From positions 1 through 41,946 of the forward strand of contig JAKSPO010000016.1 in assembly GCA_024404675.1 (NCBI GenBank): a DNA stretch of 41,946 nucleotides. The letters run 5' to 3'. The position numbers and the translations under genes were made by a program. Positions 1,523 to 41,885 of the stretch are shown in pieces. This stretch comes from Lachnospiraceae bacterium (GTDB lineage Bacteria > Bacillota > Clostridia > Lachnospirales > Lachnospiraceae). The notes below the pieces were generated by a model. That model was given only the letters and a program-made list of their open reading frames with translations. It made no database searches and was not told the DNA's origin. Position 1 is the stretch's first letter. Every line of letters starts with the position of its first letter.

Positions 1523-1604
1523 TGCGGATAACAGGACTTGAACCTGCACATCTTGCGATACGAGAACCTAAATCTCGCGTGTCTGCCAGTTCCACCATAT
1601 CCGC
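1523..1604 (-). tRNA. tRNA-Leu (anticodon UAG)
   Basis: The acceptor stem GCGGATA pairs with TATCCGC. The anticodon stem CGAGA/TCTCG holds the loop TTTAGGT with anticodon TAG (reads CUA). There is a long variable arm as expected for leucine and a T-arm with GGTTCAAGTCC. The discriminator base is A and the CCA is not encoded. No promoter is visible in the 30 bases between it and the truncated GH9 gene upstream, so it may be read from that gene's promoter. Its 3' end faces the mobile-element-like region. Confidence 0.9.
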
Positions 1605-38842: not shown

Positions 38843-39052
38843 TTACTGAACAGAAATAACCTTGTAGCCTTCTTCAACAACTGCCTTCGTAAGCACCTCT
38901 GAAGAAACCTCACTGTCCATTGTTACAACTGCGGTACCCTCCTTGTGGCTTACCTCAGCGCTTGTAACACCGTTCAGTGCCTCCAAAGCCTTCTTCACAT
39001 GCATCTCGCAGTGTCCACACATCATACCCTCAATCTTCATTGTTTTAACCAT
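38843..39052 (-). CDS. copZ: CopZ copper chaperone, likely produced by internal start within copA
   Basis: 69 residues in the same frame as the end of copA, beginning MVKTMKIEGMMCGHCEMHVK and ending VEEGYKVISVQ, exactly the length and layout of free-standing CopZ (CxxC metal site, beta-alpha-beta-beta-alpha-beta fold). The ATG at 39050-39052 is preceded by AAAAGGAGA (39061-39069) at nine bases, as strong as true starts in this window. The codons making this site read through in copA as IIEKETKTM. So the cell may make both a CopA with an appended domain and a free CopZ, which delivers Cu(I) to the pump and to CsoR. Alternatively the site is a relic of a gene fusion. Internal initiation is inferred, not shown. 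Confidence 0.6.
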   Translation of the reverse strand: MVKTMKIEGMMCGHCEMHVKKALEALNGVTSAEVSHKEGTAVVTMDSEVSSEVLTKAVVEEGYKVISVQ

Positions 39053-41365
39053 TGTTTTTGTCTCCTTTTCTATTATGGTATTCTTTATATCCTGCTCCTT
39101 CTTAAGTGCCTGCTTATGCAGTCGCACCAGGTTGAGTCGCAGGGCATTGGTTACTACACAAAAGCTTGATAAGCTCATCGCTGCGGCGGCAAACATCGGA
39201 TTCAGCGACCATCCGAATATCGGAACGAACACGCCCGCCGCGAGCGGTATTCCGATTGTATTATAGACAAATGCCCAGAACAGATTCTGCTTAATGATGC
39301 GAAGCGTCGCCCGGCTTAATGTAATTGCCCCGGATACATCCGTGAGACTGCTCTTCATCAGAACAACCTCGGCAGCCTCAATTGCAACATCCGCACCTGC
39401 ACCGATTGCAATACCGATATCGGCTGTTGTCAGTGCCGGGGCATCATTTATGCCGTCACCGACCATGATTACCCTGCCGTTCTGTTGCAGTCTCCGGATC
39501 TCTGCCTCCTTACCGCTCGGAAGAACTCCGGCGATGACCTCATCGACGCCGGCCTTCACGCCGATTGCCCTAGCGGTCCGCTCGTTGTCGCCCGTAAGCA
39601 TCACAACATGAAGTCCCATCTTCTTCAGCTCAGAGATTGCCGCAAAGCTTTCCTCCTTCATCGTGTCCGATACCGCGATAATACCGCAAAGCTTGTCACC
39701 TCTTGCAAAGAACAGGGGCGTCTTACCGTCTTCGGCAAGCGAATCGGCCTTCTTATGCCACTCACCAGAAATCTCTGCGTATTCCTCAATCATACGGCTG
39801 TTTCCGCCGTAAAGCATCGTTCCATCAAGCTTAGCGGAAAGCCCATTGCCCGGCAACGCCGTAAAATGTGAAACCTCCGCAGGAACCATCGAAAGAGCCT
39901 CACAATAACTTCGAACAGCGCCTGCCAAGGGATGCTCGCTTCGATTCTCAAGTGCATACGAAAGCTCCAAAAGCTCCCGCTCCGTCATATCGGATGCCGG
40001 AATAATATCTGTAACTGTCGGCTCGCCACGCGTAATCGTTCCCGTTTTATCAAGCACAACGGTTCTGACCTTTCCGGTTTCCTCAAGCGATACTGCTGTC
40101 TTAAAAAGAATACCGCTACGGGCACCCTTGCCGCTTCCGACCATAATCGCAACCGGTGTTGCAAGACCAAGCGCGCACGGACAGCTCACAACCAGAACCG
40201 CAATTCCTCTTGCAAGCGCATACCCAAAATCCTTCCCAAGCAAACACCATACAACAATGGTCACCGCAGAAATCGCCATAACAGTCGGAACAAATACGCC
40301 CGACACCTTGTCAGCAAGCTTTGCAATCGGCGCCTTTGTTGCAGCCGCATCACTTACAAGCTTAATAATCTGCGAAAGCGTCGTGTCCTCTCCGACTCTT
40401 GTTGCTCTACACTGAAGGAATCCCGAGCGGTTCAGCGTTCCTGCCGAAACCTCTTCCCCTGCGGACTTATCAACCGGAATACTCTCGCCGGTCAGGGCAG
40501 ACTCATCAACGGCACTGTCGCCGGATACGACCACCCCATCAACAGGAATACTCTCGCCGGGTCTTACCAGGAAGATATCCCCCTCCGAAACTTCTTCAAT
40601 ATCAACGCTTTGCTCAATACCGTCACGAACTACGACTGCATTTTTCGGAGAAAGCTTCATCAAACTCTTAAGAGCATCCGTCGTACGTCCCTTTGAGCGT
40701 GCTTCCAGCATCTTTCCAAGGGTAATCAGGGTGAGAATCGTGGATGCCGACTCAAAATAGAGCGAGTCCATATACTTCATAACCATCTCGGCATCGCCAA
40801 GTCGCTGCGCCTCACTCATCGCGAAAAGTGCCACCGTACTATAGGCAAATGCGGCCGTTGAGCCAAGTGCAACCAGAGCATCCATATTCGGAGATCGATG
40901 CCAGAGGCTCTTAAATCCGTTAATGAAGAAACGCTGGTTGATAACCATGATAATCACAGTCAGAAGAAGCTGCAGCAAGCCGTGTGCAACATGGTTATGA
41001 TGAAAGAACGAAGGAATCGGCCACCCCCACATCATACTTCCCATTGAAACATACATGTGAAGAAGCCAGAATACAAGCGATACCATCAGGCGTCTTTTCA
41101 GTATCGGTGTCTCCGTATCCTTTAACTGCTCATTGGCGGAAGAAGTGCTTCCACTCCTTTTCTGACCACTCTTCTCACTTGCACCATATCCGGCTGCAAC
41201 AACTGCAGAAATGATGCTTTCCGAAGAAGCTTCGCCATCAACGCGCATTGAATTTGTCAATAAACTGACCGTACAGGACCTGACGCCTTCCACCTTCGAA
41301 ACCGCTTTCTCAACACGAGCGGAACAGGCAGCACAGGTCATTCCTGTAACTTGAAACTGTTTCAT
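38843..41365 (-). CDS. copA: Copper-exporting P1B-type ATPase CopA with C-terminal CopZ-like domain
   Basis: 840 residues. CopA pumps Cu(I) out of the cell. The N-terminal metal-binding domain has GMTCAACSARVEK (CxxC). About eight membrane helices follow, with actuator TGES (SALTGESIPVD), the intramembrane SCPCALGLATPVA, phosphorylation site DKTGTITRGEP, nucleotide-binding SEHPLAG, and GDGINDAP. Cu-binding Tyr-Asn (FVYNTIG) and MxxxS (AMSLSSF) residues lie in the last helices. Unusually, the C-terminus carries a second metal-binding domain (about residues 772-840, IEGMMCGHCEMHVKKALEAL) joined by a charged linker EKETKTM. An internal ribosome site and ATG precede that domain (see separate entry). 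Transcribed with csoR, 8 bp apart, from a CsoR-operated promoter. Confidence 0.95.
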   Translation of the reverse strand: MKQFQVTGMTCAACSARVEKAVSKVEGVRSCTVSLLTNSMRVDGEASSESIISAVVAAGYGASEKSGQKRSGSTSSANEQLKDTETPILKRRLMVSLVFWLLHMYVSMGSMMWGWPIPSFFHHNHVAHGLLQLLLTVIIMVINQRFFINGFKSLWHRSPNMDALVALGSTAAFAYSTVALFAMSEAQRLGDAEMVMKYMDSLYFESASTILTLITLGKMLEARSKGRTTDALKSLMKLSPKNAVVVRDGIEQSVDIEEVSEGDIFLVRPGESIPVDGVVVSGDSAVDESALTGESIPVDKSAGEEVSAGTLNRSGFLQCRATRVGEDTTLSQIIKLVSDAAATKAPIAKLADKVSGVFVPTVMAISAVTIVVWCLLGKDFGYALARGIAVLVVSCPCALGLATPVAIMVGSGKGARSGILFKTAVSLEETGKVRTVVLDKTGTITRGEPTVTDIIPASDMTERELLELSYALENRSEHPLAGAVRSYCEALSMVPAEVSHFTALPGNGLSAKLDGTMLYGGNSRMIEEYAEISGEWHKKADSLAEDGKTPLFFARGDKLCGIIAVSDTMKEESFAAISELKKMGLHVVMLTGDNERTARAIGVKAGVDEVIAGVLPSGKEAEIRRLQQNGRVIMVGDGINDAPALTTADIGIAIGAGADVAIEAAEVVLMKSSLTDVSGAITLSRATLRIIKQNLFWAFVYNTIGIPLAAGVFVPIFGWSLNPMFAAAAMSLSSFCVVTNALRLNLVRLHKQALKKEQDIKNTIIEKETKTMVKTMKIEGMMCGHCEMHVKKALEALNGVTSAEVSHKEGTAVVTMDSEVSSEVLTKAVVEEGYKVISVQ

Positions 41366-41373
41366 AAAATCAC

Positions 41374-41679
41374 CTACTTCATAAGCTTCTGAAGTGTTAC
41401 CAGAAGTTCATCAATTACATCCTCACGACCTTCTTTAATATCCTTCACAACACAGCTTTTCATATGACTTGCAAGCAATTCCCTGCAAAATCCATTCAGT
41501 GCAGCCTGCACAGCAGAAGCCTGCACAAGAATATCGTTACAATACTGATCCTGCTCTACCATACCACGAATACCGCGAATCTGACCCTCAATACGATTTA
41601 ATCGATGAGTCAGCTTACGCTTCTCTTCTTCAGATCGATCCTTCGTCTTATGACAGAAACAGTTCTCCTGTCCACTCAT
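41374..41679 (-). CDS. csoR: Copper-sensing repressor CsoR
   Basis: 101 residues, all helical, of the CsoR/RcnR family. The copper site Cys-His-Cys is visible: QYCNDIL, then SHMKSC with His and Cys spaced by three. A DNA-binding segment lies near the N-terminus (KRKLTHRLNRIEGQIRGIRG). Cu(I) binding makes the tetramer leave DNA and allows transcription. The operator sits in its own promoter (41716-41734), giving autoregulation of csoR-copA. An N-terminal CFCH cluster is an additional metal-type motif. Start: ATG seven bases after GGAGGG; a longer in-frame start precedes the ribosome site. Confidence 0.92.
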   Translation of the reverse strand: MSGQENCFCHKTKDRSEEEKRKLTHRLNRIEGQIRGIRGMVEQDQYCNDILVQASAVQAALNGFCRELLASHMKSCVVKDIKEGREDVIDELLVTLQKLMK

Positions 41680-41713
41680 ATATGTACCCTCCAAAACCAT
41701 TCATTGCACTAAT

Positions 41714-41741
41714 TGTATACCCCCTAAGGGTATATTGTCAA
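41714..41741 (-). promoter_or_regulatory. csoR-copA promoter with CsoR operator
   Basis: Minus-strand TTGACA (41736-41741), 16-bp spacer, TATACA (41714-41719). The spacer is filled by the palindrome TATACCCCCTAAGGGTATA (41716-41734), matching the AT-flanked C/G-tract operator of CsoR. A bound repressor would cover both promoter elements. Confidence 0.85.
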
Positions 41742-41806: not shown

Positions 41807-41814
41807 TTCAGAAG

Positions 41815-41885
41815 AGGCGCGAACCGGATTTGAACCGGTGATCATGGTGTTGCAGACCAGTGCCTTACCACTTGGCTATCGCGCC
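41815..41885 (-). tRNA. tRNA-Cys (anticodon GCA)
   Basis: The acceptor stem GGCGCGA pairs with TCGCGCC. The anticodon loop is CTGCAAC-type, with GCA reading UGC. The T-arm contains GGTTCAAATCC, the discriminator is U as expected for Cys, and no CCA is encoded. Confidence 0.92.

Follow-up and report, generated by a model that had tools for sequence, protein, structure and literature searches.

A copA gene of a Lachnospiraceae bacterium probably encodes both a copper pump and, from an internal start, a free CopZ-like chaperone

Can a single copA gene provide both a copper pump and a free copper chaperone? The question is raised by a contig of a Lachnospiraceae bacterium (JAKSPO010000016.1, assembly GCA_024404675.1), of which we analysed positions 1 to 41,946 (the window hereafter, 41,946 nucleotides in full). 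Here copA, at 41365..38843 on the minus strand, encodes an 840-amino-acid (aa) Cu(I)-type P1B ATPase made up of an N-terminal HMA domain, the core and a C-terminal HMA domain, and the C-terminal domain has a Shine-Dalgarno (SD) sequence and an ATG of its own in front of it. Based on comparison with relatives, we consider it very probable that copA is a nested two-product gene, encoding the 840-aa pump and, by in-frame internal initiation, a free CopZ-like chaperone.

On the minus strand, the sequence at the internal start reads 5'-GAAAAGGAGACAAAAACAATGGTTAAAACAATGAAG-3'. The internal SD, AAAAGGAGA, lies at 39061..39069 (minus strand) with its GGAG at 39065-39062, and 9 nt separate this GGAG from the in-frame ATG at 39050..39052 (minus strand), which is Met772 of CopA. 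The copA frame stays open from ATG 39052 for 69 sense codons and closes with the TAA at 38845-38843. The coordinates thus bear out what a first-pass annotation of the window had described, namely the SD nine bases before an ATG that opens the last 69 codons of copA, and its span of 38843-39069 runs from the stop codon to the first SD base. Such a pairing of an SD with an in-frame start codon, both embedded in a larger coding sequence, is the arrangement of internal initiation. The nested copZ (38843..39052, minus strand) would encode a 69-aa CopZ-like HMA protein that is also the C-terminal domain of CopA, with the metal site MMCGHC, which follows the MxCxxC pattern. This stretch is a complete, ferredoxin-like Pfam HMA domain (PF00403, 60.4 bits, cut-off 24.8), with residues 4-64 matching positions 1-62 of the 62 in the profile, and its sequence relatives in the PDB include the CopZ entries 2qif, 6ff2 and 1k0v.

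The start codon also coincides with a predicted structural boundary. The internal ribosome site is contained in a low-confidence and fast-evolving linker before the C-terminal HMA (residues 753-771; 39053..39109, minus strand). In a single AlphaFold2 model built from 35 sequences (mean pLDDT 76.9, pTM 0.59), pLDDT is below 50 at residues 753-770 and block means are 83-90 from residue 771 onward. Strand beta-1 of the C-terminal HMA starts in this model at residue 772, the internal Met. Initiation at Met772 would accordingly release exactly one folded domain, as modelled.

The strength of the site within one gene says little. Its anti-SD energy of -9.5 kcal/mol ranks 7th, tied with three others, among all start triplets of copA in any frame, and it is the best in-frame internal start of the gene by this energy (with copA's own start included in the ranking). 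A 7th rank by itself would be unremarkable in a single gene and is weak evidence, but conservation across fused relatives makes the site more than chance.

Relatives were gathered from 80 named loci, 22 genomes of the genus and 150 of the family (100 regions fetched); for the order (196 genomes) and the phylum (299 genomes) the best matches were taken. From 301 sequences we skipped copies of the window's locus (L001, L003, L004 and L244), 7 duplicates and 11 without a recognised core, and the resulting set holds 279 distinct ATPase genes: 242 fused (window gene included), 20 with a separate HMA gene, counted if within about 420 nt downstream, and 17 with neither. Clustering at 70% identity, with one representative each, left 110 genes; identity was taken across a core stretch that opens 180 residues ahead of GDGxND and closes at transmembrane segment 8 (TM8). 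An SD was called at a complement of at least 5 nt and an energy of -7 kcal/mol or lower. The start codon picked was the one with the lowest anti-SD energy within a 12-codon window, which slightly favours the targets, and a fixed-window test repeats the comparison. Trees were unrooted FastTree trees without a support cut, from which seven ATPases of another, Cd-like group were excluded where met.

Near the HMA boundary a start codon is found in 235 of the 242 fused genes (231 ATG, 2 TTG, 2 GTG), and 229 of the 242 have an SD and start codon at the domain boundary that pass both thresholds. The residue at the start in these 229 is M in 226, L (TTG) in 2 and V (GTG) in 1. A complement of at least 7 nt precedes 157 of the 235 boundary starts compared to 14 of 5718 other in-frame ATGs of the same genes. 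The same holds for the 110 representatives, which share less than 70% core identity: 106 have the start codon, preceded by an SD of at least 5 nt in 104 and of at least 7 nt in 66, compared to 195 and 9, respectively, of 2468 other in-frame ATGs. This result supports the proposal of the first-pass annotation that copA yields a pump and, by internal initiation, a free chaperone. Its concern that a sequencing error might hide a stop codon can be set aside as unlikely, since 242 distinct genes share the open fusion.

SD and Met also come and go together. With the window fixed on the metal site, both are present in 222 of the 242 fused genes and neither in 10, while 3 have the SD only and 7 the Met only (Fisher p = 3e-11); the 10 with neither include L156, L200 and L257, whose start falls outside this window and which are SD-bearing by the other count. 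In the Met-less but SD-bearing genes L078 and L156 a TTG sits at SD spacing, and in L115, which is SD-bearing, the chosen GTG immediately precedes an ATG. Two genes, L169 and L180, carry two tandem C-terminal HMAs, and in both of them SD and ATG precede the last HMA only. For second copies in tandem N-terminal HMAs, a Met at the equivalent position was found in none of five, and an SD-like energy of -8 or lower in two.

The codon phase of the SD is not fixed: 180, 27 and 22 genes fall into the three phases, and one FastTree tree requires at least 35 switches between them. The peptides spelled by the SD core vary as well (53 in number, for example KEx, GE, QEE, TEE, RS and GG), so selection acts on the DNA. 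Averaged over 14-nt windows, anti-SD energy reaches its minimum (-10.0 to -10.3 kcal/mol) in those ending 3-6 nt before the start. Mean anti-SD energy at the site is -10.6 kcal/mol compared to -7.4 after synonymous recoding and -4.1 after shuffling of the linker codons (186 genes). The linker around the site is free to change, since it has 58 lengths across 187 fused genes and, upstream of position -5, no residue present in more than about a third of them. L178 was excluded from the recoding test and the length count for its misplaced motif; its second C-terminal motif resembles a chance match. Taken as a whole, the comparison points to an initiation site conserved beyond coding constraint.

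We therefore picture the following route for a two-product copA. Translation of a csoR-copA mRNA from the copA start would give the copper pump of 840 aa, which has one HMA at either terminus. In addition, de novo initiation would take place at the SD and ATG within the linker, which is A-rich and unstructured, and the last 69 codons would be translated from there. The product would be a free, soluble CopZ-like copper chaperone, which could carry Cu(I) both to the pump and to CsoR.

A number of observations weigh against this picture. That ribosomes use the site and that a free product exists we infer from the sequence features and their conservation. Ten fused relatives (L052, L068, L085, L139, L140, L143, L177, L185, L270 and L273) are without the site or start, so the fusion can persist without the site. 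They are what is left of 13 fused genes first labelled as SD-less, after removal of L080, whose site is strong when judged by energy (-12.6), and of L169 and L180, in which the site precedes the second HMA. The sequences are related, and the counts are not independent events. Moreover, a fused query biases the sample (one of the six search patterns came from the C-terminal HMA, and the other loci are best matches to the fused query), so that 242 fused genes against 37 others give no estimate of prevalence. Alone, the 69-aa domain scores below the cut-offs of the CopZ models NF047957 (70.8 vs 85 bits), NF033795 (57.6 vs 91), NF033794 (52.5 vs 95) and TIGR00003 (39.9 vs 62). The first-pass annotation had called it a complete CopZ: the HMA domain is indeed complete, but with stand-alone scores below the curated cut-offs the description should read complete CopZ-like HMA domain. 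It may work like a CopZ, though not filed as a member of these models.

Other points of the same kind concern the signal itself. At the level of single genes, p <= 0.05 was found for 160 of the 186 in the shuffle test and for only 25 of the 186 in the synonymous test, so a large share of the signal is due to the amino acids. Anti-SD energy also dips, less deeply (-6.8), at +33, inside the HMA. The openness of the start region, with a mean minimum free energy over 60 nt of -2.6 kcal/mol (230 genes) compared to -13.9 for windows placed at random in these genes, -10.1 for linker further upstream (130 genes) and -13.2 for the HMA, is mostly composition (GC 34% vs 51%) and only 0.9 kcal/mol above codon-shuffled windows.

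Finally, the nested HMA need not be the sole free HMA of the cell, as many SD-bearing genomes have other short HMA frames. We surveyed 46 genomes, with matches listed down to about 36 bits. A strong short frame (at most 90 aa, at least 50 bits) is found in 4 of the 7 fusion-free genomes (G045, G075, G076 and G120), in 2 of 8 genomes with a site-less fusion (G090 and G171; the survey covered 8 of the 10 known cases) and in 0 of 31 SD-bearing genomes. Among the matches listed, however, 17 of the 31 SD-bearing genomes have a lower-scoring short frame (about 36-48 bits, 73-102 aa). HMAs of 51-59 bits also lie in 122-185-aa frames of the SD-bearing G056, G114, G116, G140, G143 and G164, and in longer frames of 328 and 462 aa in G163 and G101. 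The comparison of short frames depends on the threshold; it is only suggestive and is not counted as support here. The genome of the window itself has three matches to the HMA model at E <= 0.001, namely both ends of CopA and one 79-aa frame, and the latter adjoins a second, more distant ATPase. In L052 (genome G171) and L185 (genome G090), fused copA genes without the internal start are found together with a strong separate HMA frame of 75-76 aa (63-65 bits), a pattern that would fit takeover by a free copZ in these genomes.

How else could the conserved site be explained? An alternative that we regard as unlikely, and that is compatible with the two-product reading, is that free CopZ comes from a separate short transcript, made from an internal promoter or by mRNA processing, and uses the same ribosome site. 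Such a transcript would need the ribosome site just as well, and there is a weak promoter-like match at 39048-39021 on the minus strand. This match, however, falls downstream of the internal ATG, and promoter-like sites in the region (in a sigma-70-type scan only) are no commoner than in shuffles, with 4 compared to a mean of 3.7.

Quite improbable, in our view, is that SD and ATG are relics of a once separate copZ and that only the long CopA has been made since the fusion. A relic origin is made plausible by 20 relatives in which the copA stop is followed, 17-367 nt later, by the start codon of a separate HMA gene, preceded in 20 of 20 by an SD of -9.1 kcal/mol or lower. Fusion also gives the pump a second metal domain, and according to the accessible part of PMC11970713 the A. 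fulgidus CopA has two metal-binding domains (MBDs). The ten site losses fit a relic as well. Nevertheless, the fusion is old: the fused or not-fused state changes only 7 times on the tree of 279 cores compared to 34-37 times in the five label shuffles printed. Over this time the SD has persisted through 58 linker lengths and across codon phases, and it is kept in 104 of the 106 representatives with a start codon. The losses show what decay looks like. They amount to 11 changes on the tree, counted with all 13 of the initially SD-less genes, or about as many changes as genes, and as they arise separately the site seems to decay where it is not kept. The first-pass annotation had looked to fused relatives with a degraded site as evidence against internal initiation; mostly the reverse is found, with 229 of 242 keeping the site and 10 having lost it.

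The split relatives also suggest how the nested gene arose. The separate HMA gene starts less than 180 nt after the copA stop in 11 of the 20; the remaining 9 start 306-367 nt past the stop, which is room for another small gene between. The simplest history would be an ancient and rare loss of the copA stop from a tandem copA-copZ pair, whereby the two frames were joined, with the ribosome site and start of copZ kept under selection since. We infer the direction of this change, from split to fused. A split/fused polymorphism within one genus, suggested by apparent stops inside the gene in G184 and G283, was rejected as the normal gene end.

Less probable still is a pausing role, in which an SD-like element would delay elongation where the membrane domain ends and thereby aid insertion or folding without any initiation. 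The element does sit after TM8 and ahead of a separately folding domain. It is nonetheless tied to a start codon at SD spacing, and it precedes the last rather than the first of two C-terminal HMAs in both genes that have them. In addition, 36 of the 37 CopA-type genes without a fused HMA end 7-16 residues after the TM8 anchor motif, and since these proteins end so soon after TM8, insertion needs no such element there. Hardly credible at all is conservation at the protein level of a K-E-x-M linker motif required in the pump: K is found at -5 in 138 and E at -4 in 173 of the 229 genes, yet the site spells 53 peptides in three codon phases, and KE pairs are written AAGGAG in 100 of 125 cases at the site compared to 137 of 736 elsewhere in the same genes. 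Frameshifting of the E. coli type was also considered and rejected, as copA lacks any in-frame -1 heptamer of the pattern X XXY YYZ (Y = A or T).

How far does the two-product arrangement extend? The fusion with SD and ATG is found in the cultured strains Roseburia sp. 831b (-9.9 kcal/mol), Ruminococcus albus 7 (-11.1) and Butyrivibrio fibrisolvens D1 (-10.3), for each of which the gene table, itself incomplete, names a single ATPase at the locus. Collinsella aerofaciens has two annotated genes. Fused copA is also carried by Treponema ruminis and T. bryantii, and the Treponema records L046, L063, L069, L070, L073, L076 and L081 have a fused copA whose internal product would start MKI.VKGMMCGHC. 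Fused copA in Treponema suggests transfer between phyla, probably from Clostridia.

With less assurance than for the gene itself, we lean towards a clade-wide, obligate gene within a gene. Across a large clade of gut and rumen Clostridia and in some Treponema, the C-terminal domain of the pump would then be the cell's CopZ, and the built-in ribosome site, under selection ever since the fusion, would determine how much of it is made. If so, many copA records would hide an unannotated copper chaperone, and the internal site may fix the CopZ:CopA ratio or adjust it with copper. The family would also make an unusually clean natural dataset for internal initiation, with three codon phases, loss variants and split-gene relatives.

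The assignment of the pump is straightforward. CopA matches E1-E2_ATPase, Hydrolase and two stretches of HMA in Pfam, the N-terminal HMA (41186..41356, minus strand) with 65.1 bits to PF00403. It passes the copper-translocating ATPase profiles TIGR01511 (597.5 bits, cut-off 397) and TIGR01525 (642.9, cut-off 346.25) and scores below the enterobacterial CopA equivalog (PRK10671) model NF007952 (658.9 bits vs a cut-off of 1316). C395-P396-C397, D439-K-T-G-T443, G636-D-G-x-N-D641, C11 and C14 are invariant in 35 aligned sequences; CPC, DKTGT, GDGxND and the N-terminal CxxC are motifs that we take to be characteristic of the Cu(I) P1B-type ATPase CopA. Elsewhere in the collection, the 984-aa CopA frame of L223 runs 227 residues past TM8 into lipoprotein-like sequence, possibly a gene fusion or an assembly error.

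Upstream of copA by 8 nt lies a gene for a CsoR-type copper-sensing repressor (41374..41700, minus strand; PF02583, 99.8 bits). Its start is more likely ATG 41679 than the listed ATG 41700, as an SD-like GGAGGG fits the former, giving a 101-aa protein that starts MSGQENCF. Upstream of csoR, the inverted repeat TATACCC-5 nt-GGGTATA (41716..41734) is a probable CsoR operator and lies inside the promoter-like TTGACA-18-TACAAT (41741-41712). Directly upstream of the copper operon is a tRNA-Cys gene (41814-41885, minus strand), and a tRNA-Leu gene (1523-1604, minus strand) lies near the start of the window.

The concept of in-frame internal starts is not new. N-terminally truncated forms made in this way are known for clpB, infB, cheA, ccmM, ssaQ and arcB (PMC11005335, accessible part), in a text that mentions copA 0 times. 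Unlike such products, the short form of copA consists of one complete domain, and other lineages encode this domain in a gene of its own. A chaperone start inside copA is not described in the accessible portions of PMC8475189, PMC9470648, PMC7558416, PMC11005335 and PMC11970713, nor in any of the titles and abstract openings listed by searches of open-licence literature, which is weak evidence of absence.

Tandem copA-copZ operons, as in Staphylococcus, Listeria and Enterococcus, have the same order of pump and HMA/CopZ, and the records of these genera that were listed are mostly annotated as an ATPase plus copZ or an HMA protein. In those operons a stop parts the two genes, whereas the present copA lacks it and has copZ nested within. 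In the CopA of A. fulgidus, one MBD is C-terminal. This pump has two MBDs, like CopA here (PMC11970713), and the CopZ of that species is another kind of protein, with an iron-sulfur domain attached (PMC7558416); an internal start is not mentioned in the accessible parts of these two papers. The A. fulgidus CopZ passes Cu(I) to the membrane domain of the pump, which the isolated MBDs could not do in vitro (PMC11970713, accessible part), and CopZ proteins also serve copper sensors (PMC9470648, accessible part). As CopZ both delivers Cu(I) to the pump and serves sensors, there are tasks for a free domain that may be beyond a tethered one. A free CopZ-like form would be made and would do the work of CopZ here.

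The closest parallel is the one drawn by the first-pass annotation, E. coli CopA(Z), which is apt as an analogy with another mechanism and at the other end of the gene. The E. coli CopA and CopA(Z) forms reportedly result from programmed ribosomal frameshifting, work ascribed to Meydan (2017) and Drees (2017) and present among the reference titles of PMC7558416. Frameshifting in E. coli releases the N-terminal domain of CopA. In the accessible part of PMC9470648, E. coli is described as obtaining CopZ from copA by frameshifting, so that one gene gives the pump and a free metallochaperone. Here too one copA would give a pump and a chaperone; unlike in E. coli, the chaperone would be the C-terminal domain, made by a new start in the same frame. 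If true, this is a second, independent bacterial route to pump and chaperone from one gene, reached convergently by an unrelated decoding trick, suggesting that a fixed ratio between the two is worth keeping.

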